Of a stretch of 37,092 nucleotides of DNA, positions 8,809 to 37,091 are shown piece after piece (positions within the stretch are counted from its first letter, which is position 1; each line of letters opens with the position of its first letter). Made by a program: the position numbers and the translations under genes. The notes under the pieces were generated by a model. The model was not told where the DNA came from. It was given only the letters and a program-made list of their open reading frames with translations, and did no database searches. The stretch is from Verrucomicrobiales bacterium. Lineage in GTDB: Bacteria > Verrucomicrobiota > Verrucomicrobiia > Verrucomicrobiales > DEV007. Location of the stretch: positions 1-37,092 of the forward strand of contig JARGOP010000044.1 of the NCBI GenBank assembly GCA_029233965.1, in the 5' to 3' direction.

Positions 8809-9582
8809 ATGTCCTCCGCGTTTGAACTCCACGGAGTGACATGTCGCTTTCGGGACCTCGTCGCAATCGACGGGGTCTCTTTGTCGATTGAGAAGGGCGA
8901 GCAGCTTGCGTTCATTGGCCCGAGCGGCAGTGGCAAGACGACCCTGATCCGTCTTCTCAATACCACGCTTCTTCCCGACGAAGGCGAACTTTCAATTCTC
9001 GGCGACGACGTTGCCGACAAAGGAGTGAACGCCCTGCGTGAACTTCGCTCGAGAATCGGAACGATGCCGCAGCATCTCGGCCTCGTTGAGAACCTGACCG
9101 CCATTCAGAATGTAATCCTGGGCCGCGGAGGAACCCGCAGCACCCTTCGATCGATCCGGGATTTGCTCATGCCCTCGAGTGCCGATGAGGAAAGGATCCA
9201 TCAGTTGCTCGATCGGGTCGGGATCGAGGACAAACTCTACACAGCGACCTCCAAACTTTCCGGGGGGCAGAAGCAGCGCGTCGCGATTGCGCGGGCCCTC
9301 TTTCAGGAACCGAAAATCCTGCTTGCGGACGAACCCGTATCAGCGGTCGATCCGGCCCGGGCCCGGGACACGGTTAAGCTTCTCACGGAGCTTTCCGAAG
9401 AGCATGGTTTCACTCTCTGCGTCAGCCTTCATCATCTCGAGCTCGCGAAAGAGTTTTTTCCCCGCCTTGTCGGACTGCGCGGAGGGAAGGTGGTGTTTGA
9501 TGGTTCACCGGATTCTCTCGACGGAACGGAACTGGATGCGCTCTACGAATTGAGCGACGACGAAATGATGACCGATGCCTGA
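8809..9582 (+). CDS. PhnC-type ABC transporter ATP-binding protein (putative selenium oxyanion import)
   Basis: The protein is a complete 257-residue ATPase with Walker A GPSGSGKTT (37-45), Q-loop region MPQHLGLVENLT, signature LSGGQKQR (150-157), Walker B ILLADEP (170-176) and H-loop SLHHLELA. The spacing and NLTAIQNVILGR are typical of the phosphonate (PhnC) subfamily. It should energise the permeases encoded next to it, at the inner face of the cytoplasmic membrane. It begins 17 nt after the binding-protein gene, so the two are cotranscribed. Substrate assignment rests on context only. A long hairpin separates it from the permease genes and may lower their expression relative to the binding protein. 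Confidence 0.9.
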   Translation: MSSAFELHGVTCRFRDLVAIDGVSLSIEKGEQLAFIGPSGSGKTTLIRLLNTTLLPDEGELSILGDDVADKGVNALRELRSRIGTMPQHLGLVENLTAIQNVILGRGGTRSTLRSIRDLLMPSSADEERIHQLLDRVGIEDKLYTATSKLSGGQKQRVAIARALFQEPKILLADEPVSAVDPARARDTVKLLTELSEEHGFTLCVSLHHLELAKEFFPRLVGLRGGKVVFDGSPDSLDGTELDALYELSDDEMMTDA

Positions 9583-9601: not shown

Positions 9602-9664
9602 ATGGCGAAAGACGTGAGCCTTTCGAAGTGCCCAACCAAAGGAAAGGCTCACGCCTTTCGCCAT
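9602..9664 (+). repeat. Long near-perfect hairpin between the ATPase and permease genes
   Basis: A 23-nt left arm (9602-9624) is complementary to a right arm (9642-9664) with a single mismatch, around a 17-nt loop. The arms contain GGCGAAAG and GTGAGCCTTTC. It lies after the ATPase stop and before the permease ATG at 9679. There is no T-run, so it is unlikely to be a simple terminator. An mRNA-stability or attenuation hairpin, or a dispersed REP or MITE-like element, are the options. A GTG at 9628 opens a frame inside it that is probably not used. Confidence 0.85.
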
Positions 9665-15918: not shown

Positions 15919-17724
15919 TTAAAGCGGCGGTGCCTCAATAAATCCTTCGAGCTGACGGATTCGGGTGGGGTGACGCATCTTGCGGAGCGCCTTGGCTTCG
16001 ATCTGACGAATGCGCTCGCGGGTGACCTGAAACTGCTTCCCAACTTCTTCCAGGGTGCGGCTGTAGCCGTCGATGAGACCGAAGCGCTGCTCCAGAACCT
16101 CGCGCTCACGCGGTGTAAGAGTATCGAGGACATCCTTGATACGATCCTTCAACATTGCCATGGAGGTCATGTCGCTCGGATCTTCGGCCCCCTTGTCTTC
16201 GATAAAGTCTCCGAGACTGGTCTCCTCGCTGTCTCCGACGGGTGCTTGCAGTGAAATCGGCTGCTGAGCCATTTTCAGGACGGCACTGACACGCTCGACC
16301 GGGAGGTGAATCTCTTCGGCAATCTCATCAGGAGTGGGTTCCCGTCCGTATTCCTGCACGAGCTGCTTCTGCACGCGCATCAGCTTGTTGATCGTTTCGA
16401 TCATGTGGACCGGGATACGGATCGTCCTGGCCTGATCGGCAATGGATCGGGTAATTGCCTGACGAATCCACCAGGTCGCGTAGGTGGAAAACTTGTAACC
16501 GCGGCGGTATTCGAATTTCTCGACCGCTTTCATTAAGCCCATGTTGCCTTCCTGAATGAGATCGAGAAAAGAAAGACCGCGGTTCGTGTATTTCTTGGCG
16601 ATGGAAATGACGAGTCGCAGGTTGGCTTCCACCATTTCATCTTTCGCCTGCCGCGCTTCCGCGACAAAGACGGCGAGGGCTTCGGCGGCGGTGTCGAATT
16701 CCTCCTGGCTCATCCAGACTTCCTTTTCGAAAGCGGTCCGGGCCCGCGTCGCTTCACTTTTCGTTTTGCGGTCTTTTGCTTTCTTGGCCTGGACATGCAG
16801 CTTGCCGGAGCGCTCCGCAAACTCCTCAGTGACCGTCACGAGATCTTCAGTCACCTTCTGCTTGAAGAAAAAACGACTGTAGCATTTCGCGAGGGCAGTG
16901 GTTTCCGAGGACCACTTCGTGGCCAGTTTTTTCTCTGCAGCCGGGGTTTTTGCAGCCCGCAGATCGCCGTATAATTTGTCGAGGGTGGCCTTGGCTTCCG
17001 ACACTTGAGCGCAGAGCTTCTCCAGGCTTTTAAGGTAGCGCGACCGGCTTTCGATCTTCTTGTCCACGATCAGGCGGTCGAAACGCTCTTCGCCGGATTC
17101 GAGGCGATCCGCAATATCGAGATAAGCCTCCGGAATGAATCCGAATCGGGAAATGGTTTTCCGAATGTCGCTTTCAGCCTTTTCGATACGCTTTGAGATT
17201 TCGACTTCCTGCTCGCGGGTGAGGAGGGGAACCTGCCCCATCTGCTTGAGATACATCCGGACCGGATCGTCGAGAATGTCGAGTTTGCCCTCCTTCGCAG
17301 GAGCGGGCTTTTTGGCTTCGACCTCGATTTCCGTATCGTCATCTTCCTCGTCGCCGATCACTTTGACATTGTCGACTTCAGCGGAATCAATGATGCGGAA
17401 CTTCATGCCCTGAAGTCGCTCGATCAGTTCCTCCATCAACTCGAGGTCACTCTGCGTATCCGGGAGCGCTTCGTTGATGTCGTCGAAGGTCAGGTAATCC
17501 TGCTCCTTGGCGAGGCGGATCAGATCGCGAACGATGGGCTGAAATTCAGGAGAATCGAGAGGCGACTTTGGCGCGGGCAATGCTTCAGCTGTTTCCGGCT
17601 TGACTGCCGCGGTTTTAGTCCGTTTCGGCGCCGACTTTTTAGCCGATTTTTGCTTTGCCTTGGGCATAGCTGACTTGGTAGGCTTTCCCGTTGAGGGGTT
17701 CTTGGATTTTTTACCGGCAGCCAT
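15919..17724 (-). CDS. rpoD: Primary RNA polymerase sigma factor (sigma-70)
   Basis: The 601-residue protein starts with a Lys/Ala/Pro-rich tail (1-50), then region 1.1-like sequence, region 1.2 ([25 protein letters not shown]), a non-conserved insert (about 200-340), region 2 ([59 protein letters not shown]), region 3 ([13 protein letters not shown]) and region 4.2 with the helix-turn-helix [30 protein letters not shown]. It recognises -10 and -35 promoter elements of housekeeping genes. It follows dnaG by 48 nt, the classic macromolecular-synthesis order dnaG-rpoD. The basic N-terminal extension with repeated [10 protein letters not shown] is unusual for Proteobacteria but common in other phyla. 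Confidence 0.96.
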
Positions 17725-17772: not shown

Positions 17773-19635
17773 CTAACTTTCGTGTAGTTGTCCCCTGAGG
17801 TCAAGGAGTTGTTTATTGAGGAGAAGGACCGCCTCCGCCGGAAGATTTGGTGCTCCCATTTTCGATTTGATTCCGGCGATCTGATTCTGAATGCTCAGCT
17901 TTTTGAGCTTTTTCAGACAATCCTGTGCAAGATCGGGTGTCACCGTGGCGCTGTTTTCCATCAGAATTTTCGAAACCCGGCTTTGGTCCTCATCCGAAAG
18001 GGTGCCGATGAACGCGTTGACGCTGCCGGGGCTGGCGGGGTCAAAGTTTCCCCGCCAAATCCGTGAAAGCAGTTCGGTTTCAGTGAGAAAGTCGAAAAAC
18101 TCCGGTACTGGATTCTGAATGATACTTTGACGCGTTTCGGAATCGTTGAGCAGTGCTTTGCAAAGGAGTCGCACCGAGCGGTTCGTGATCCCGGACGACG
18201 AGTCATGGTTCGAGTCGCTCTGAGGCGAGGATGGATTCCGCCCGGGTGCCGGTGAGGGCTGCTCCCGCTGTCGGGAGATGTTCTCACGGCGCACTTGAGC
18301 TTTTTCAATGCGATCCCGCGACACGGCTGCATTTCTCACGAGCTTCCGGATGTCGTCCTCGCCAACGCCGAGCCGCACCGTGACCCGGCTGATCAGTGAA
18401 TCCTGCAGCATCTTGTCCTCGATCAGAGCGATGTCGGCGGCGAGATCCTTCGCAAAGTTGAGCCGGTCTCGAAGCGGGCCCTGTGTCAGCGCGCTTCCAC
18501 GACTGTCGATATGGAAATCAAAGAACTCCGGCGAGGAGTCGAGAATCGAGGCGAGCGCGTCGATGCCCCGGCTCCGGATCAATGAATCCGGGTCTTCGCC
18601 CTCGGGCAGGAGAGCCAGCCGAACGAGGATTCCCGCCGGAGCGAGGACGCGGAAAGCCTTGCTCGCGGCGTTCAATCCCGCTGTGTCAGAGTCAAAGCAG
18701 AGCACCACCTCATCGGTGTGCCGCTTGAGAATGCGAGCGTGATCCTTCGTGAAGGCGGTCCCCAGAGGGGCAACGACATTTTGAACCCCGGCTTCGTAGG
18801 CGGCGATCATGTCGAGCTGGCCTTCACAAACGATGGCCCGCTTTTGTTGAATGATGGCCCGCTTGCTCTTGTCGAGACCGAAGAAAGTTTTGCTCTTGTT
18901 GAAGAGACCGGTCTCAGGAGAGTTCACGTATTTCCCGCCCCGTTGATCTTTCGAGAGAACGCGCCCACTGAAAGCGATCGGCTCGCCCATGCCGTCGTTG
19001 ACGGGAAACATGAGGCGGTGCCGGAAGAAGGAGTAGGCTCCCCGGTTGGGATTGTTCTCGTCGCGCCATTTCGCGAGCCCGCCGTTGACGAGTTGCTCGA
19101 CGCTGAAGCCGGCACCCTGCGCCCATTCGAAGAATGAGCGCTGATCCTCCGGGGCGAAGCCGAACTTCCAGTTTCGCGAGACCTCCATTGTGATGCCGCG
19201 TGATTTCAGGTAATCGCGGGCCGGCTGGGCGGCCCGGCTTTTGAAAAGGAGCCGGTGAAACCAGTCTGCGGCCGAGGCCTGCATTCGTTTCAGCTCACTG
19301 CGCCCGCGAATTTTCGCGAGTTCCTGCGGGTCGAGAACCTCCTCCTGAATCATAACCCCCGCGCGGTCCGCGAGCATTTTGGCCGCTTCGGGAAAAGGGA
19401 GGTTGTCATACATCATGACAAACTTGATCGCATCGCCGCCGGCCTGACAGCCAAAGCAATGGAAGGTTTGCCGCGATGGATTGACGTTGAAGCTCGGAGT
19501 CTTCTCGTTGTGAAACGGACAGACCGCGACAAAGTTCACCCCGGCCCGTTTCAGGGGGAAATACCCCTGGATCAGCTCCACAATATCGGAGCCGTCGAGG
19601 ATTTTCTGAATCGTTTCCTGAGAGATGATCGCCAT
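17773..19635 (-). CDS. dnaG: DNA primase
   Basis: DnaG makes RNA primers at the replication fork. From ATG 19635 the 620-residue protein has an N-terminal CHC2 zinc finger (Cys39, His42, Cys60, Cys63 in CPFHNEKTPSF and FHCFGCQAGGD). The core contains FSGRVL and VNSPETGLFNKSKTFFGLDKSK, the TOPRIM acidic motif (AIVCEGQLDMIAAYEAG, then VLCFDSDTAG), and a C-terminal helical region for helicase contact. An ATG 13 codons further upstream would run through a strong dyad and is not typical of the family, whose N terminus is like AIISQETIQKILDGSDIVELI. It lies upstream of rpoD on the same strand. Confidence 0.95.
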   Translation of the reverse strand: MAIISQETIQKILDGSDIVELIQGYFPLKRAGVNFVAVCPFHNEKTPSFNVNPSRQTFHCFGCQAGGDAIKFVMMYDNLPFPEAAKMLADRAGVMIQEEVLDPQELAKIRGRSELKRMQASAADWFHRLLFKSRAAQPARDYLKSRGITMEVSRNWKFGFAPEDQRSFFEWAQGAGFSVEQLVNGGLAKWRDENNPNRGAYSFFRHRLMFPVNDGMGEPIAFSGRVLSKDQRGGKYVNSPETGLFNKSKTFFGLDKSKRAIIQQKRAIVCEGQLDMIAAYEAGVQNVVAPLGTAFTKDHARILKRHTDEVVLCFDSDTAGLNAASKAFRVLAPAGILVRLALLPEGEDPDSLIRSRGIDALASILDSSPEFFDFHIDSRGSALTQGPLRDRLNFAKDLAADIALIEDKMLQDSLISRVTVRLGVGEDDIRKLVRNAAVSRDRIEKAQVRRENISRQREQPSPAPGRNPSSPQSDSNHDSSSGITNRSVRLLCKALLNDSETRQSIIQNPVPEFFDFLTETELLSRIWRGNFDPASPGSVNAFIGTLSDEDQSRVSKILMENSATVTPDLAQDCLKKLKKLSIQNQIAGIKSKMGAPNLPAEAVLLLNKQLLDLRGQLHES

Positions 19636-19652
19636 GCACCGCGGGACGGGAG

Positions 19653-19687
19653 TGAACAGGGTTACGTGTGACACTTAACCCTGTTGA
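19653..19687. promoter_or_regulatory. 35-bp dyad TGAACAGGGT-N15-ACCCTGTTGA upstream of dnaG
   Basis: The left arm TGAACAGGGT (19653-19662) and the right arm ACCCTGTTGA (19678-19687) flank 15 nt. In this copy the uninterrupted inverted repeat is 10 bp, AACAGGGTTA (19655-19664) with TAACCCTGTT (19676-19685), with a short GTGACAC core between. It begins 18 nt before the dnaG ATG. The same two 10-mers at the same spacing recur at 25387-25421. An operator or RNA hairpin is likely, and the factor is unknown. Confidence 0.6.
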
Positions 19688-19720
19688 ATCCACGTCGCAA
19701 CGGATGAGAGCAGACCGGAA

Positions 19721-21157
19721 TCAATACTCCCGGTCTTTCTTGATGCCCGGCTCGGGGACGGGGTATCGGCCGTTTTCATCCGGCATGAGTGGAGACTCGC
19801 CGTTGAGGACGAGTTCCGTCACATTCGGAGCCATAACGTGATCACTGTTCAGCATCTGATCGTAGGTGATGACCTGTCCGGTGTGAGCCGCCATGCGTCC
19901 CATTGAAGTGGTGACGGAAGCGGCAACGCCGCGTTCGAGTTCGTTGTGAACCTTGTTCTCACGGATCGCATCGATGATGACTTCCCACTCGATGTCGTAG
20001 GGGTTGCCCTCAAGGCTCATGCCGCGGTCGCCCATGGGGAAGGCCCAGAGCAGATTCTCCGGCGTGGCGCGGTAGTTCATGTTGATGTTCTGATCCTTGT
20101 AGAGGCGGGAGCGGGCCGGAACGTGGCCGGCTGAGGAAATCACGGCGGATCCTTTGGTGCCGTGTGCGTAGGCCGCGAATTCCTGATTGCAGCCTTTCAT
20201 GTTTCGACCATCGAAGAAGGCTTTTGCGCCGTCGGCAAAGGTGTATTCGACACCATAGCTGTCGAAGTTCTGGTCCACCGCTTCCACCATTTCACCGTTT
20301 TGTTCCAGCATCTTGTAGTGTCGTCCGCCGACGGCCTTCGCCTCGACCGGAAAAGCGTTCTTGATCATGCACATCTCGTCAATGCCATGAATATTGAAGT
20401 CACTGAAGGCACCGCCGCTGAGCCAGAGGAAACTGTGGAAATTCCGGATCTGATACATCAGCTCGCTCATCTCACCGTTGTTCTTCGCCGTGAAGCAGCT
20501 TCCGATGGGGCCCTGCATCCGGTAGGATCGCATGAAAGTGATGTCTCCGATGGCTCCATCGTCGATCCGCTTTTTCAGCTCATTGCGGGATTTGCAATGA
20601 CGACACATGAGGCCGACACCAACCTTGAGGCCCTTCTCGACCGCCTTTTTATTGATCTCGAGAAGCTTGCGGGATGAGAAACCATCAGCTGAGAGCGGTT
20701 TCTCCATGAATACGTTCAGACCCTTTTCGACAGCATATTCAAACATGGGCCAGCGAAAGGCAAGGGGAGTCGTGAGAATAGCGATATCTCCCGGATTCAT
20801 CGAATCCATCGCCTGCCTGTAGCCGTCGAAGCCGATAAACTGGCGCTCTTTCGGAACATCGACGTGCTCGCCGACGACAGGGTCTTTTTCCAGTGTCTTG
20901 AGAGAACGATCAAGCTTGTCTTCGAAGACGTCCGCCATCGCGTGGAGCTTCAGGGGGCCAAGCGTTCCGGACACGGACATCGCGTTTTTCACCGCACCGG
21001 TTCCACGACCGCCGCAGCCAATGAGGGAAATTTTCAGTTCTTCGTTCACCTGAGCGTGAACATGAGGAATAGCGATTCCGGCGAGAGCAGACGCACCGGC
21101 GACCGTTTTGATCGCGGAACGACGCGTGGGAAGGGGATTTTTTGCCATGTCAGTCAT
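19721..21157 (-). CDS. Tat-exported Gfo/Idh/MocA-family oxidoreductase
   Basis: The 478-residue protein has a twin-arginine signal (PTRRSAIKTVAGASALAGIAI, about 10-30, cleavage near HVHAQ). It then has a Rossmann NAD(P) motif ISLIGCGGRGTGA (43-55), the family EKP motif (NVFMEKPLS) and a C-terminal alpha/beta domain. Such proteins oxidise or reduce sugars and related polyols. Large families with Tat signals are typical of Planctomycetes and Verrucomicrobia, where many act in polysaccharide use. The exact substrate is unknown. The gene is monocistronic by position, with 85 nt to dnaG. ATG 21148 is an alternative start that keeps the signal peptide. Confidence 0.92.
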   Translation of the reverse strand: MTDMAKNPLPTRRSAIKTVAGASALAGIAIPHVHAQVNEELKISLIGCGGRGTGAVKNAMSVSGTLGPLKLHAMADVFEDKLDRSLKTLEKDPVVGEHVDVPKERQFIGFDGYRQAMDSMNPGDIAILTTPLAFRWPMFEYAVEKGLNVFMEKPLSADGFSSRKLLEINKKAVEKGLKVGVGLMCRHCKSRNELKKRIDDGAIGDITFMRSYRMQGPIGSCFTAKNNGEMSELMYQIRNFHSFLWLSGGAFSDFNIHGIDEMCMIKNAFPVEAKAVGGRHYKMLEQNGEMVEAVDQNFDSYGVEYTFADGAKAFFDGRNMKGCNQEFAAYAHGTKGSAVISSAGHVPARSRLYKDQNINMNYRATPENLLWAFPMGDRGMSLEGNPYDIEWEVIIDAIRENKVHNELERGVAASVTTSMGRMAAHTGQVITYDQMLNSDHVMAPNVTELVLNGESPLMPDENGRYPVPEPGIKKDREY

Positions 21158-21306
21158 AGGGTAAGTGTCTAAGTATGGGCGGAAATCGTCAATGACTTCA
21201 ATGCGGTAGTCACCTCATTGCATTTTCATCGCGGAGGCGGAGGAAAAAGAGCGTTGCTCCGATCCGCTTCTGATGCGAAATCGGAGAGTGGTCTTGCTTC
21301 GAGACG

Positions 21307-22222
21307 ATGTCCTTTTTACTCAAACCCCTTACTGAGAATGCGGAACTTGCCGGATCGTTTCAGATCCCGGAAGGCGCCGGATCGTATTCAGTAGGCCGCT
21401 TGCTCGACAGCGATCTGACAATCCGGCAGGACTCCATCTCCGGTCTCCACGCCGCGATAAAGACAGGCTGATCGCGACTCTGGAATGTGAAGTGTCGCGA
21501 CGCGATTCGTCTCTGCAACAGTTGGAAGAGAAACTGCGGCTTTCCGGGGAAGAGATGTTGCAGGGGCAATTCGGATATGCGCAACTCGAGGCAGAGATAC
21601 AGCAACTGAGGGAAGACCTGGAAAGCACGAAAGCGGCCTCGGAGTCGTATGAGCAACGTTTCGAGGGATTTCTCGGGGCGGTCCGTTCTCGCGGATAGAA
21701 ATGGCGGGAGAATTGGTGCTACTGGACTTTTTTCGAAGAAATCCCCGTTTTTGAGGGGCCTGATCTTTCAGCGGTGGAGCGTTTCGATACGATGCGTGAA
21801 GGGATCCGGCGCGAACTCGATCTCATTGACCCCTCTGGAAAGAGTTCGGTAGTGGGGTTACGTCGGAGCTGAAAAATCGCTGCGAAGCTTTGCGTGCTGA
21901 TCAGAGACGGCTCGAAGAAGAGAAAGAGAAAAAGAACGGGGAACTTGCAGCGACAGAAGTGGAACTGGCCCGGATCCGGGAAGAGGTCGAACGCGAAGTG
22001 CTTCGTGCGCAGGGAACTGAGTCAGCGCAATGTGGAAATCGAAATCCAAGAACGCCATGAATCGATGGTGATTGCGAGGGACCGGAGGCAGGAGTTGTTT
22101 CTCGATCGGATCGAGCAGGTGCAGTTTTTCGAGCGTCTCATTGATGGGTGCCGAAGTTCGAAAAAGAGGAAGGAAGTGAAAGTGTCTGGACGCAGGGGAT
22201 GTGGAACGCGGGGATACGTTGA
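21307..22222 (+). pseudogene. Frameshifted remnant of an FHA-domain plus coiled-coil protein
   Basis: ATG 21307 opens a 54-codon piece whose end is an FHA fragment (SYSVGRLLDSDLTIRQDSISGLHAAI). It stops at TGA 21469. Coding sense continues in a different frame (KDRLIATLECEVSRRDSSLQQLEEKL, with a coiled coil to TAG 21696-21698). It then moves to a third frame (EEIPVFEGPDLSAVERFDTMREGIRRELDLIDPSG) and shifts again to KNRCEALRADQRRLEEEKEKK, then to LSQRNVEIEIQERHESMVIARDRRQELFLDRIEQVQFFERLIDG. Finally it reaches VPKFEKEEGSESVWTQGMWNAGIR and TGA 22220-22222. At least four frame changes and a missing second half of the FHA fold show decay. The original would have been a phosphothreonine-binding protein with a long coiled coil. 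No intact gene occupies 21158-22356. Confidence 0.8.
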
Positions 22223-22356
22223 GCAACCCTTTCAGCCCGGGTAAAGTCCTGAAGATGATCCGGAGCGGGTATCGGGCCGGGAGCGGGGTCTCCGCGGTGA
22301 TATTGCGTAATCTTGGAGTCTTGATTCAAGAGGCGGAAGGCGCAAGCTTGTCCCGC

Positions 22357-23214
22357 ATGTCATGGATCCACGGAAACCGACTCCGCATCGCGATGCTGCT
22401 CGCGGTGCTGGGCGGGTTTGTGTCTTCGACGGTTGCTTCAGATGATCCCGAGGAGGATTGGATCGGTGCCTTCGGCTGGCTTCAGACCGGGCAGCGACTT
22501 GAGCCGGAAGGATACTGGCCCCTCGTTCTCGGTAGCTACATGGAAGCACATCGGAAGATGAAGCAGATGCGTGAGGAACATCCCGGTTATGAGCGGGAAA
22601 TGGTGGAGTATCGCATCGGGAAACTGGAGGAGGAAATTGCAGCGGCGGAAGAGAAACTGGCGGGCGGTGATCGTGACATCATGGTGAAGTTTGTCGATTT
22701 CGCCGAGTCCTTTGAGACCGGGCTGGAGCAGAGATTCGACAACCAATTTGTCGAAGCAATGAACACGCTCGAAGTCGCGCGGGTTCTCCTCGATGAGATC
22801 ATCTTCGAGAATCCCGAAGTGTATCGTGATGCGGTAGCCTCTCAGTATGAGCTGCTCGAGAGCAGTCTCGCCTGGCTTGACAGCCAGATCAATTTTCGTG
22901 AACGGGAGCGCGAGCAGAGAAACACCTTTGTCGGGGACGGCGTTGAGTGGGGGACCACTCAGTTTGTGCAGGCGGCCGATCTCCCCGCCGAAGGGGATTC
23001 AATTCTCGTCTCGGGTGAGTTGTTTCCCGGTTTCATCGTTGTCGAGGGTTTGGATGAACCTTCGGATTTGCCGGAAAACGATGCGGGGATGGTGGAACCG
23101 GAGCAGGAAGAAGACCGCGAAAAAAAGGCGACGAGCGCGCCGATCCCGGGCTTTCGGATGAGCAGCAAGCAGAGCGGGATCCCCGAACTGCCGGAGGGAA
23201 TCGCGGAGGATTAA
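22357..23214 (+). CDS. Secreted coiled-coil protein of unknown function
   Basis: From ATG 22357 the product has 285 residues: a signal peptide (basic HGNRLRIA, then AMLLAVLGGFVSSTVAS, cleavage before DDPE) and a mature acidic alpha-helical protein. It has WIGAFGWLQTGQRLEPEGYWPLVLGSYMEAHRKMKQMREEHPGYERE, a helical stretch with a coiled coil to about residue 200, and a low-complexity Glu-rich tail. I do not recognise a named family. It follows the FHA/coiled-coil pseudogene on the same strand and may once have been its partner. The open frame extends upstream to 22201 but without a signal-compatible start. Its stop overlaps the convergent sulfatase stop by a few bases. Confidence 0.7.
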   Translation: MSWIHGNRLRIAMLLAVLGGFVSSTVASDDPEEDWIGAFGWLQTGQRLEPEGYWPLVLGSYMEAHRKMKQMREEHPGYEREMVEYRIGKLEEEIAAAEEKLAGGDRDIMVKFVDFAESFETGLEQRFDNQFVEAMNTLEVARVLLDEIIFENPEVYRDAVASQYELLESSLAWLDSQINFREREREQRNTFVGDGVEWGTTQFVQAADLPAEGDSILVSGELFPGFIVVEGLDEPSDLPENDAGMVEPEQEEDREKKATSAPIPGFRMSSKQSGIPELPEGIAED

Positions 23215-24647
23215 AAATCGCGGAAGGGGCCACGCGGCTCTGCAGCCTCCATCGTTGACTCCCATTCCGCGAAGGCAGCCTGGAGTTCTTTCAGTTTTCC
23301 GGGATCTGTTTCAGAGAGATCCCGGCTCTCACCGGGGTCGTCTTTCAGATGATAAAGGCCGCGCTGCTTTTCGCCCATTACCGTCCATTTCCAGTCGCCG
23401 ACCCGTGCGGCATACTGATCGCGGCGTTTCCAGAACATGGTGCTTCGCGGTGAGGGCTCTTCGCCTCTCAGCGCTGGCCACCAGTTGTATCCATCCAGGA
23501 CGAGATCCGCCGGTAACTCATGGTGACTGGCTGCGGCAAAAGAGGGAACCAGCTCGAGGCTCGAGAGAAAGGCATCATTCACTACTCCGGCGGGAACATC
23601 GCCACCGGTCCATCGCACAAGGCAGGGAACGCGAATCCCGCCTTCCCACATTTGCGATTTCCTTCCCCGGAGCGGGGCGTTGTCGGCGCCACCGGAACCG
23701 CCGTTGTCACTGAAGAAAACGACGATGGTGTTGTCGGCGATTCCCTTTTCATCGAGCAAGTCTAACAGTTTCCCGATCGACGCGTCCATGCAGGTGACGG
23801 AGGCGCGGTAGTCGCGCTCTCTTGCCTCGGGGGTCGTCACCTCGGCGGGACCTCCATAGCGGTACCGTTCGACCTTTCTGTATTCTGTTTCGACCGGGGG
23901 ATACATCGCTTTGTACTTCCCGGGGGCCTGCACCGAAGTGCGGATCCTCGGTTCAAGCGCGGAAGAATTGTGCGGGGCGTTGAAAGGGACGTAGAGGAAG
24001 AACGGCCGGGTCCCCGCCGTTTCCTCGAGAAAACGTATCGCCTCCCGCTCGAAGAGGTAGGTCGCATAGGTGCCCTTGTCCGCCTCGGTTTTCTCGAGGT
24101 TGCGATACATGCTGGGAACGCCGTAGCGCTCGTGCGTGTAGAAATCGATGCCGGTATTCACGAAGCCATAGAAGTCATCAAATCCGCGCGAGGTCGGAAG
24201 AAAGCGTTTCAGGGTGCCGAGGTCCCACTTCCCGTAGATCGCAGAGGTATAGCTGTCCGGAAGGAGCGTGGGAATGATCTTTTCCTCGAGATCCATGCCG
24301 CCGATTCGCTCGAAGGAAACCTCGTACTCCGCGGGAGGATACTTGTAGCCGTAGTCGGGGGCTTCGTTCCGGATCATGTCGTAGATCCCGTTCCGCTGAG
24401 GATAGCGACCGGTGAGAAGCGCCGCGCGGCTCGGGGTGCAGGCAGGCCAGGAAACGTAGAAGTTGGTCAGTCGCGTTCCCTCTTCCGCAAGGCGGTCGAG
24501 ATTGGGAGTGATGATTCCGTTTCCGAGAAGGCCGAGGTCATTGTATCCCTGATCGTCCGAAACGATGAGAAGAATGTTAGGCTGTTCCGCAGTGTAGGAA
24601 AACGGAGCGGAAAGGGCGACGGCAAGAAGGCAGAAAATCGATCTCAT
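23211..24647 (-). CDS. Secreted sulfatase (Cys-type, formylglycine-dependent)
   Basis: The 478-residue protein has a Sec signal peptide (MRSIFCLLAVALSAPFSYTA) and then NILLIVSDDQGYNDLGLLG, with metal-binding Asp31 and Asp32. The active-site motif is CTPSR at 70-74 (WPACTPSRAALLTGRYPQRNG), where Cys70 should be converted to formylglycine by a separate FGE. Later motifs GKWDLG and FFSDNGG complete the site. Sulfatases of this kind hydrolyse sulfate esters of polysaccharides in the periplasm and are abundant in marine Verrucomicrobia. It overlaps the upstream glycosidase gene by 4 nt (ATGA), so the two are coupled. The SenA FGE-like domain is not an FGE for it. Confidence 0.93.
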   Translation of the reverse strand: MRSIFCLLAVALSAPFSYTAEQPNILLIVSDDQGYNDLGLLGNGIITPNLDRLAEEGTRLTNFYVSWPACTPSRAALLTGRYPQRNGIYDMIRNEAPDYGYKYPPAEYEVSFERIGGMDLEEKIIPTLLPDSYTSAIYGKWDLGTLKRFLPTSRGFDDFYGFVNTGIDFYTHERYGVPSMYRNLEKTEADKGTYATYLFEREAIRFLEETAGTRPFFLYVPFNAPHNSSALEPRIRTSVQAPGKYKAMYPPVETEYRKVERYRYGGPAEVTTPEARERDYRASVTCMDASIGKLLDLLDEKGIADNTIVVFFSDNGGSGGADNAPLRGRKSQMWEGGIRVPCLVRWTGGDVPAGVVNDAFLSSLELVPSFAAASHHELPADLVLDGYNWWPALRGEEPSPRSTMFWKRRDQYAARVGDWKWTVMGEKQRGLYHLKDDPGESRDLSETDPGKLKELQAAFAEWESTMEAAEPRGPFRDF

Positions 24648-25411
24648 GGGACGGGTTCGGTGATGGCCAGAATACCGGCAAACTGATTCGTTTCCTCGAT
24701 TGGACCAGTTTCCCCGCGGATGTAAACATCAGAAATGACACCATCAAGGTAGAGTGCGTTCCGGCAATTCAGGGTGTCCCGGAAGAGTTCCGCGAAGTGG
24801 TAGAAGTTGGTGTGCCCTTTGTCTTTCTCGTAGACCGAACAAACGAAGATGATGGAGCCATTCTGATCGACGCCGACTCCGTTTCGTCGCTTCCTGCTCT
24901 CCGAGTCAGGGGAAAATGCCGGATGAATTCTCCCTGACTGCACGAGAAGCGGACCGGACTGGGTCGCGAGTTGAACTTTCTCATTCGCCGCCGCAAACTT
25001 CGAAGACTCGAGGATGCCGGCCGTTCCGTTTGGGCGAATGAAAAAGACGCCATTCGGTTTCAGGAAAAAGTTCGGGGTGAGTTGTCCCTCCCGTTCCTTC
25101 ACGAAGTCGTCGAGGTTCAGCTTCGTGATTGTCTTCCCTTCCGAAACGTGAAGCCCTGTGGGCAGGAAGTTCCCTTCAAAGATTCCGGCGTTCATGGCGA
25201 ACGTGAGCCTTTTGCGATCCCGTTCGAGCCGCTTTTCAAGCTTCGGGAAGGTGTTTGGTTCGCCCGGCTTTTCTGCGAGGAAAAGCTGAACGACTTCCTT
25301 GTCCGGATCGACCCGGTAGACGTGAAAATGAGTTCCCCGATGCTGAACCGGATCAGCATGAAGGGGAGTGATCGCAAGGAGGAGACTGAACAGGGTGAGA
25401 TGACGGACCAT
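24644..25411 (-). CDS. Secreted DUF2233/NAGPA-like phosphodiester glycosidase
   Basis: From ATG 25411 the protein has 255 residues with a signal peptide (MVRHLTLFSLLLAITPLHA). The domain is the phosphodiester glycosidase (DUF2233, NAGPA) fold: LTFAMNAGIFEGNFLPTGLHVSEGK, FFLKPNGVFFI, TQSGPLLVQSGRIHPAF, RNGVGVDQNGSIIFV and a final NALYLDGVISDVYI. Homologues cleave phosphodiester-linked sugars, as in the human enzyme that uncovers mannose-6-phosphate. The bacterial substrate is unknown. The gene is coupled to the sulfatase, which suggests joint action on a modified glycan. An upstream extension to 25477 is open but lacks a signal and crosses the dyad. Confidence 0.88.
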   Translation of the reverse strand: MVRHLTLFSLLLAITPLHADPVQHRGTHFHVYRVDPDKEVVQLFLAEKPGEPNTFPKLEKRLERDRKRLTFAMNAGIFEGNFLPTGLHVSEGKTITKLNLDDFVKEREGQLTPNFFLKPNGVFFIRPNGTAGILESSKFAAANEKVQLATQSGPLLVQSGRIHPAFSPDSESRKRRNGVGVDQNGSIIFVCSVYEKDKGHTNFYHFAELFRDTLNCRNALYLDGVISDVYIRGETGPIEETNQFAGILAITEPVP

Positions 25412-25421
25412 ACCCTGTTGA
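25387..25421. promoter_or_regulatory. Second copy of the 35-bp dyad, spanning the glycosidase start codon
   Basis: TGAACAGGGT (25387-25396) and ACCCTGTTGA (25412-25421) flank 15 nt that include the start codon (25409-25411). Both arms and the spacing equal the copy upstream of dnaG, while the 15-nt cores differ. A protein or RNA structure here could block translation or transcription of the glycosidase-sulfatase pair. Confidence 0.55.
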
Positions 25422-36347: not shown

Positions 36348-37037
36348 ATGAAACACGATGAACCCTCAGATCCCATGAAAAATACTCCTGATCGTCTCCG
36401 GTCTCTCTCTCCGAATATCGTTTTCTGGGCTGCGATGATCACCCTTTTTACCTTCGTTCCCGCGAGCGAAGCAGGGTTGTTCGAAAAGCTCCGCGCGAAG
36501 CGGCAGGCGAAGCTTCAGAAGCAGGCGGAAGAAAATAAGCCCAGACCGAGGCCGGTGCATCGGTCGAGCTACCGGGACGCGCACGGGGATGCCTACATCA
36601 ACAGGGAGTTGCTCGAGATCGAGAAAGACTCCGAACGCAAGGTGGTCATCGACATCGAACGTCAGCGGGCTTTCCTCATTGTGAATGATCTCATCGCGGT
36701 GGACTCGGCTGTCTCTACGGCACGACGGGGGAAATACACTCCGAGGGGAACATTCCAGATCACTGAGAAAGTGAAGTCCGGCAAAGTATCGACGATCTAT
36801 CATGTCTACATGCCGAACTGGATGCGTCTCGGACATACCACCGTGGGAATGCACACGGGAGATCTGCCTGGCTATCCTGCGTCGGCGGGATGCATTCGCC
36901 TTCCGCAAAGCGTCGCTCCGATCATCTTTGAAAATGTCAGGCGTGGCGTCACGGTCGAGGTGGTGGATTCCTGGAATGAGTCGGGGTTGTCCATTCCCTA
37001 CTCGACGCCGGAGCGCGACTTTTTTGCGGCGCTTTGA
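36348..37037 (+). CDS. L,D-transpeptidase (YkuD domain)
   Basis: The 229-residue protein has a membrane or signal segment (about 23-42, NIVFWAAMITLFTFVPASEAG), a basic linker and a YkuD domain (about 97-215): VVIDIERQRAFLIVNDLIAVDSAVSTARRGKYTPRG, then the active site HTGDLPGYPASAGCIRLP with His169, Ser179 and the catalytic Cys182. Such enzymes make 3-3 cross-links in peptidoglycan or attach lipoproteins, in the periplasm. Met1 (36348) and Met10 (36375) are both credible starts. A chain of hairpins begins right after the stop. Confidence 0.9.
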   Translation: MKHDEPSDPMKNTPDRLRSLSPNIVFWAAMITLFTFVPASEAGLFEKLRAKRQAKLQKQAEENKPRPRPVHRSSYRDAHGDAYINRELLEIEKDSERKVVIDIERQRAFLIVNDLIAVDSAVSTARRGKYTPRGTFQITEKVKSGKVSTIYHVYMPNWMRLGHTTVGMHTGDLPGYPASAGCIRLPQSVAPIIFENVRRGVTVEVVDSWNESGLSIPYSTPERDFFAAL

Positions 37038-37091
37038 GGACGACGTGGAAGTCGTCCCTCCGGACGTGGAGGGACCGGTTCCACCCGGTCC
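37038..37091 (+). repeat. Chain of three short hairpins at the right edge
   Basis: Stem 1 is GGACGAC/GTCGTCC (37038-37057), stem 2 CCCTCC/GGAGGG (37056-37073) and stem 3 GGACCGG/CCGGTCC (37072-37091), each with a 6-nt loop and with neighbouring stems sharing 2 nt. Loop 1 (GTGGAA) is complementary to loop 3 (TTCCAC). It begins at the stop codon of the L,D-transpeptidase gene and may be a terminator, a REP-like dispersed element, or both. The element may continue past the window. Confidence 0.75.

Follow-up and report, generated by a model that had tools for sequence, protein, structure and literature searches.

The genome of an uncultured Verrucomicrobiales bacterium carries a family of paired DNA sites, each consisting of two 9-bp units at a fixed 22-bp pitch; in this genome and in that of a second species of the genus, the sites are spread with much greater regularity than random placement would give. 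They are best understood as cooperative sites for a putative protein that acts on the whole chromosome, and that may also use its site at the dnaG-rpoD promoter as an operator; we put the probability of this reading at about 0.5. The genomes compared below, all of them metagenome-assembled (MAGs), are referred to by number where they must be told apart: G000 is the present genome, and G012 the second species. The window is the whole stretch of 37,092 nucleotides that was analysed.

The window copies and their repeating unit

The original prediction reported two exact copies of one pattern, TGAACAGGGT-N15-ACCCTGTTGA, with identical 10-bp arms around 15-bp cores. Both are present, at 19653-19687 and 25387-25421, and twenty identical positions at fixed spacing are indeed beyond chance in the window, as 0 copies are expected when it is shuffled. 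The octamer AACAGGGT occurs four times in the window, each time inside one of the two sites. Units are designated F or R by orientation in the following list of features.

15919-17667, minus strand: rpoD-type sigma-70 gene, downstream of dnaG and on the same strand (Pfam Sigma70 r1.1 to r4)
17773-19635, minus strand: dnaG, primase (Pfam Zn_ribbon_DnaG, DNAG_N, Toprim)
19653-19687, no strand: copy 1, an FR pair; 31-bp core at 19655-19685, full double-palindrome frame at about 19650-19690
19655-19663, plus strand: unit 1 of copy 1, AACAGGGTT, F, at a 22-bp pitch to unit 2
19672-19700, minus strand: putative dnaG promoter TTGCGA-N17-TAAGTG, proposed from conservation and overlapped by copy 1
19677-19685, minus strand: unit 2 of copy 1, R, reading AACCCTGTT on the plus strand
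19721-21157, minus strand: GFO/IDH/MocA-type oxidoreductase (Pfam), ending 35 bp before the copy 1 core
23211-24647, minus strand: sulfatase gene (Pfam), preceded by the glycosidase gene, whose end it overlaps
24644-25411, minus strand: NAGPA phosphodiester glycosidase gene (Pfam), its start overlapping copy 2
25387-25421, no strand: copy 2, an FR pair AACAGGGTG...TACCCTGTT; core at 25389-25419

Copy 1 (family model match 44.5 bits, E 2.8e-7) stands 19 nt upstream of the dnaG ATG (19635-19633, minus strand). Copy 2, 5.7 kb away (42.1 bits, E 1.2e-6), overlaps the predicted start codon (25411-25409) of the NAGPA-family gene.

Scanned across the 4.83-Mb genome with spacers of N13-17, as had been proposed, the exact pattern yields only these two copies, but a looser family occupies dozens of places. 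With up to three mismatches allowed in the 20 positions, there are 60 forward and 55 reverse matches in G000, mostly the same sites on both strands, and 0 in the reversed control; the core pattern AACAGGGT-N15-ACCCTGTT, with at most one mismatch, is found at 81 places (control 0). The two window copies agree at 20/20 positions by coincidence; the family to which they belong is looser.

Alignment of 57 FR copies from G000 gives a symmetric 35-bp motif, TCAACAGGGTYRRGTC-NNN-GACYYRACCCTGTTGA, whose repeating unit is GAYYYAA-CAGGG-TTRRRTC plus 3 bp, a 19-bp quasi-palindrome around the 9-bp AACAGGGTT. In a full scan of spacings, two 9-bp units were paired at an offset of exactly 22 bp 61 times, in all orientations (FR 38, FF 11, RR 8, RF 4); ten other offsets listed had 0-2 pairs, and the mean over all others in the range 12-59 was 0.43. 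Head-to-tail pairs have the consensus GACTCAACAGGGTTNGGTCANNGACTCAACAGGGTTNGNTC, and one arm can be reversed in place, as seen among position-matrix matches in G012. Exact 9-mers with a partner number 61 and those without only 15, against 10 expected; because lone units are thus near chance level and not enriched, the pair is the functional element, and single units were rejected in that role.

The combined site lists for the 4.8-Mb genome contain about 155 paired sites among the matches listed. When a position matrix built from G000 was applied to 1.96 Mb of G012, it gave 66 matches at a score of at least 12, versus one in the reversed sequence. Some relatives carry arrays of three to six units at the same 22-bp pitch, and the family is expanded in some species: three-unit arrays are numerous in G029 (253 matches) and G009 (129). 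Arrays of four to six units at this pitch were also noted in G027 (L275, about 1479-1597), in G028 (L277, about 1435-1553) and upstream of dnaG in G029 (L083).

Even spacing along the chromosome

The 1.96 Mb of G012 hold 77 sites with a mean gap of 25.6 kb and a coefficient of variation (CV) of 0.535, versus 0.97-1.03 for random placement. Gaps shorter than 7 kb are almost missing: there is 1, against 17.9 expected, and 0 of 5000 permutations were as extreme. The deficit is the same when random positions are split between intergenic and coding sequence as the real sites are (1 versus 19.9), and under such intergenic-matched permutation the largest gap, 73 kb, also falls short of the 122 kb expected (P 0.004). 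Among 3000 control 8-mers of similar abundance in G012 none was as regular, the lowest CV being 0.67 and the fewest short gaps 8. With site lists from two models, 12 contigs of G012 totalling 4.17 Mb again show 1 gap below 7 kb, against 20.7 expected; on held-out contigs the count is 1 versus 8.6 (P 4e-4), the CV alone being non-significant there (P 0.12).

G000 behaves likewise: on contigs of known length, among the sites listed, 3 gaps fall below 7 kb where 12.7 are expected, and along contig C113 successive gaps run 31, 21, 21, 25, 24, 25, 21, 20 and 11 kb. One of the three gaps below 7 kb is the 5.7 kb between the window sites. Site lists from model searches are lower bounds, with some sites missing, and random loss of sites lowers the apparent regularity and does not raise it. 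At about 160 kb on contig C18 of G012 (L217-L218) the sign of the GC skew switches, likely at a replication terminus or origin as far as a MAG allows this to be placed; sites lie on both sides at ordinary spacing.

Conservation, distribution and gene context

Many species, and most of the genus, have the site upstream of dnaG, at a similar distance from the start codon (in most cases 18-27 nt); it is extended to four units in G029 and three in G007. Copy 1 has an orthologous site in G012; at the place orthologous to copy 2, G012 has no site. The original prediction was to be abandoned if the two copies stood alone in the genome and relatives did not conserve them. The exact copies are only two, but the family is large and relatives throughout most of the genus keep the dnaG site.

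About 20 G000 sites have identifiable orthologous sequence in the part of G012 that was read, and 15 of these keep a site. In the 15 orthologous pairs most arm positions are 93-100% identical while the flanks agree at about 50% ungapped and 75% gapped; as the pairs were chosen for having a site in both species, arm identity is partly selected for, and the retained fraction is the fairer figure. Arms that stay nearly invariant at orthologous positions between diverged flanks show that the sites are under selection. Beneath the dnaG site, the upstream regions of the genus, compared by eye, share a conserved TTGCSA-N17-TAAGTR, which suggests a conserved promoter there; a scan for consensus promoters upstream of dnaG found no canonical one.

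The family is confined to a narrow lineage. With one mismatch allowed, the pattern matches 32 of 34 genomes of this uncultured Verrucomicrobiales genus, 1 to 168 times each; in roughly 310 genomes from other genera of the family, order and phylum it gave a single match in each of two. A search of 84,980 species with the strict pattern returned 45 stretches, all from MAGs assigned to Verrucomicrobiales, Verrucomicrobiia or Verrucomicrobia. Viral contigs searched for the pattern gave no match, and carriage by phage was rejected. In three relatives the pattern falls, at about position 1501 of L037, L039 and L040, inside an apparent coding sequence that reads WFY...QQGPV (GYF-like); these matches, included in the simple pattern count, are probably a coincidence at the protein level. 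No description of the motif was found in the literature searched, and in a search for the exact motif the ten papers listed of 136 were all unrelated.

Although about 87% of the G012 sequence is coding, 48 of its 64 classifiable sites are intergenic. Tandem gaps hold 33 sites, convergent gaps 8, divergent gaps 7 and the interior of predicted genes 16, as placed by a home-made gene finder for which gene starts are approximate; within tandem gaps the sites have no clear preference for the upstream stop or the downstream start. The start regions to which the original prediction assigned the element are therefore not its general location: sites are also found at convergent 3' ends, beside unrelated genes and at even intervals. 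Neighbours, their functions read from translated sequences (with Pfam for window genes and for the neighbours of arrays), include primase, aconitase, adenylate kinase, a RecD-type helicase, thioredoxin, pyruvate carboxylase and sulfatase-related proteins, among others, and no function common to site-adjacent genes was found. The gene for the binding protein was sought as a regulator beside the longest arrays, and no common regulator was found there; the neighbours are amidohydrolase and permease, ZnuA and ABC transporter, cytochrome c, RapA, FtsW/RodA, Dus, DAK and others.

A proposed chromosome-wide role and its alternatives

The long symmetric motif, the pitch of two helical turns, the free orientation of the units with a preference for facing pairs, selection on the sites and the lack of an RNA pairing signal together argue that these are cooperatively bound DNA sites; that a protein binds them is, on these grounds, very probable. 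Even coverage, placement that is genomic rather than functional, and the absence of a common gene function argue further that its role would be chromosome-wide. The putative protein would recognise the asymmetric 9-bp AACAGGGTT flanked by inverted half-sites RRGTC/GAYY. Two units would be bound on about the same face of the helix (22 bp, about 2.1 turns), most stably when they face each other. Some 150 such pairs, one per 25-30 kb, would be kept by selection in mostly intergenic spots around the chromosome, and the bound protein might anchor domains or loops, position the nucleoid, or tie replication and segregation to division. The site at dnaG-rpoD may double as an operator over the promoter.

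A stronger version of this reading takes the sites as a lineage-specific architecture code, in which about 150 cooperative sites, each of two reversible 9-bp units, are selected at nearly regular 20-30-kb intervals and, via the putative protein, define the units of looping or segregation. We hold it tentatively, at rather less than even odds. Several observations count against the chromosome-wide reading. The search beside the longest arrays turned up no candidate for the binding protein or its gene; a copy number that ranges from 0 to 168 across the genus (one-mismatch pattern) is odd for an architectural system that is essential, barring drift of the motif; G012 lacks copy 2, which is also just 5.7 kb away from copy 1; the home-made gene finder puts 16 of 64 G012 sites inside genes; and the extended 22-bp arrays of G009 and G029 could also fit a self-amplifying repeat.

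Another perspective takes the sites as operators of a large transcriptional regulon, whose repressor or activator controls the adjacent genes, dnaG-rpoD included. A long symmetric motif conserved at orthologous places would be expected of such operators, as would a site 19 nt before the dnaG start codon over a putative promoter conserved in many species, and at dnaG the operator of the original prediction may hold. It leaves the family as a whole unexplained: neighbours have no common function, sites are no nearer to starts than to ends, some lie between convergent genes, and a regulon gives no reason for sites to stay at least about 7 kb apart. We regard a regulon as unlikely. Quite unlikely, too, is a small mobile or self-amplifying repeat, REP- or MITE-like, in which target immunity or selection against close copies would space the sites. 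Target immunity, known from Tn7 and Mu, would yield a minimum distance, and the dispersed, mostly intergenic placement, variable copy number and three- to six-unit arrays of some species fit as well; but orthologous positions are kept despite diverged flanks, conservation falls mainly on motif positions, the copies have nothing in common beyond the motif, no viral carrier was found in the viral contigs, and the Y1 transposase loci examined have no adjoining elements. G000 has ten Y1 transposase-domain matches, several in 350-aa proteins with split matches (C125, C126, C99, C134, C40, C144, C96, C6; L055-L062), and the motif was absent at the 8 Y1_Tnp loci examined.

The absence of both very short and very long gaps from the fully read part of G012 is what one would expect of a genome-wide tag for DNA processing (uptake, a recombination hotspot, packaging or self-recognition) needed once per 20-50 kb, and the motif is suitably lineage-specific. 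Known uptake and Chi sequences, however, have far more copies than these sites, and single units are not used; such a tag seems improbable. Least probable by far are RNA hairpins such as bidirectional terminators or 5' UTR elements. The original prediction of an unnamed operator or small dispersed hairpin element was half right. The element is indeed dispersed and without a name, and it looks functional; a hairpin is not supported, as the arms do not covary and head-to-tail units exist, in which this hairpin cannot form. Several sites do overlap stop codons or follow them directly, and as RNA, copy 1 gives a good fold (z about -5), which is a by-product of dyad symmetry. Watson-Crick pairing of the inner stem is 38-80%, about shuffle level; in a covariation test on 57 and 95 FR sites, partner bases pair no more than each half's consensus predicts, with a weak association at one pair position (P 0.003 among 14). 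The arms are not followed by the T run of an intrinsic terminator, neither window copy is among the sites predicted by a scan, and there is no Rfam match in the window; the hairpin or terminator is largely refuted.

For cooperative sites of a chromosome-wide protein, the closest functional analogues would be the sites of Noc, SlmA and MatP, and the closest unexplained repeat TAACTGA. The nucleoid-occlusion proteins Noc (ParB-like, B. subtilis) and SlmA (TetR-like, E. coli) each bind palindromic sites dispersed in their tens, whose placement follows chromosome position and not a single pathway; multiple dispersed palindromic sites are likewise present on the chromosome here. SlmA binds as a dimer of dimers, and the sites of both proteins are underrepresented in the Ter region (PMC4726725). 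Those sites are short single palindromes, whereas here two 9-bp units lie at a 22-bp pitch in any orientation, evenly spaced and with no gap at the GC-skew switch on C18 of G012. The matS sites of MatP resemble the present ones in being dispersed, sequence-specific and able to organise DNA without controlling adjacent genes, but matS is 13 bp long, with 23 copies confined to Ter (PMC3116907), against about 150 copies genome-wide here; when GTGACRNYGTCAC was compared, the motif differed, and the sites are spread over the genomes of both G000 and G012.

REP elements are also short palindromic extragenic repeats of high copy number, tagged by GTAG or CGTC (PMC3733652). The consensus GAYYYAACAGGGTTRRRTC-NNN-GAYYYAACCCTGTTRRRTC has neither tag, and membership in the REP/RAYT family was rejected: there is no hairpin maintained by pairing, no RAYT neighbour at the loci examined, and the sites are evenly spaced and keep their orthologous positions. 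TAACTGA repeats of Beggiatoaceae, Cyanobacteria and Bacteroidetes form about 170 intergenic sets of two to six units; like the present units they are short and repeated beside genes without common function, with no known binder, but those heptamers are direct repeats that mostly lie immediately before start codons (PMC4679880), whereas the 9-bp units here occur in all orientations, evenly spaced and not tied to starts.

Only a few model organisms are known to have dispersed sites that organise the whole bacterial chromosome, and the reviews consulted do not describe regular spacing for such sites. If the paired sites anchor domains, they would serve as a ruler in the sequence for domain size (about 25 kb), and would offer a direct route to the protein and an independent test of selection on domain spacing itself.

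Two inverted repeats of other kinds were noted in the window. One, at 9602-9664, directly after a gene ending at 9582, has 23-bp arms (96% complementary) and a 17-nt loop; it is perhaps a terminator or a member of another repeat family, unrelated to the paired-site motif. The other, of 24 bp and 75% complementarity, occupies 37038-37091 at the contig's very end, after an ORF ending at 37037, and the assembly may have broken there at a repeat.
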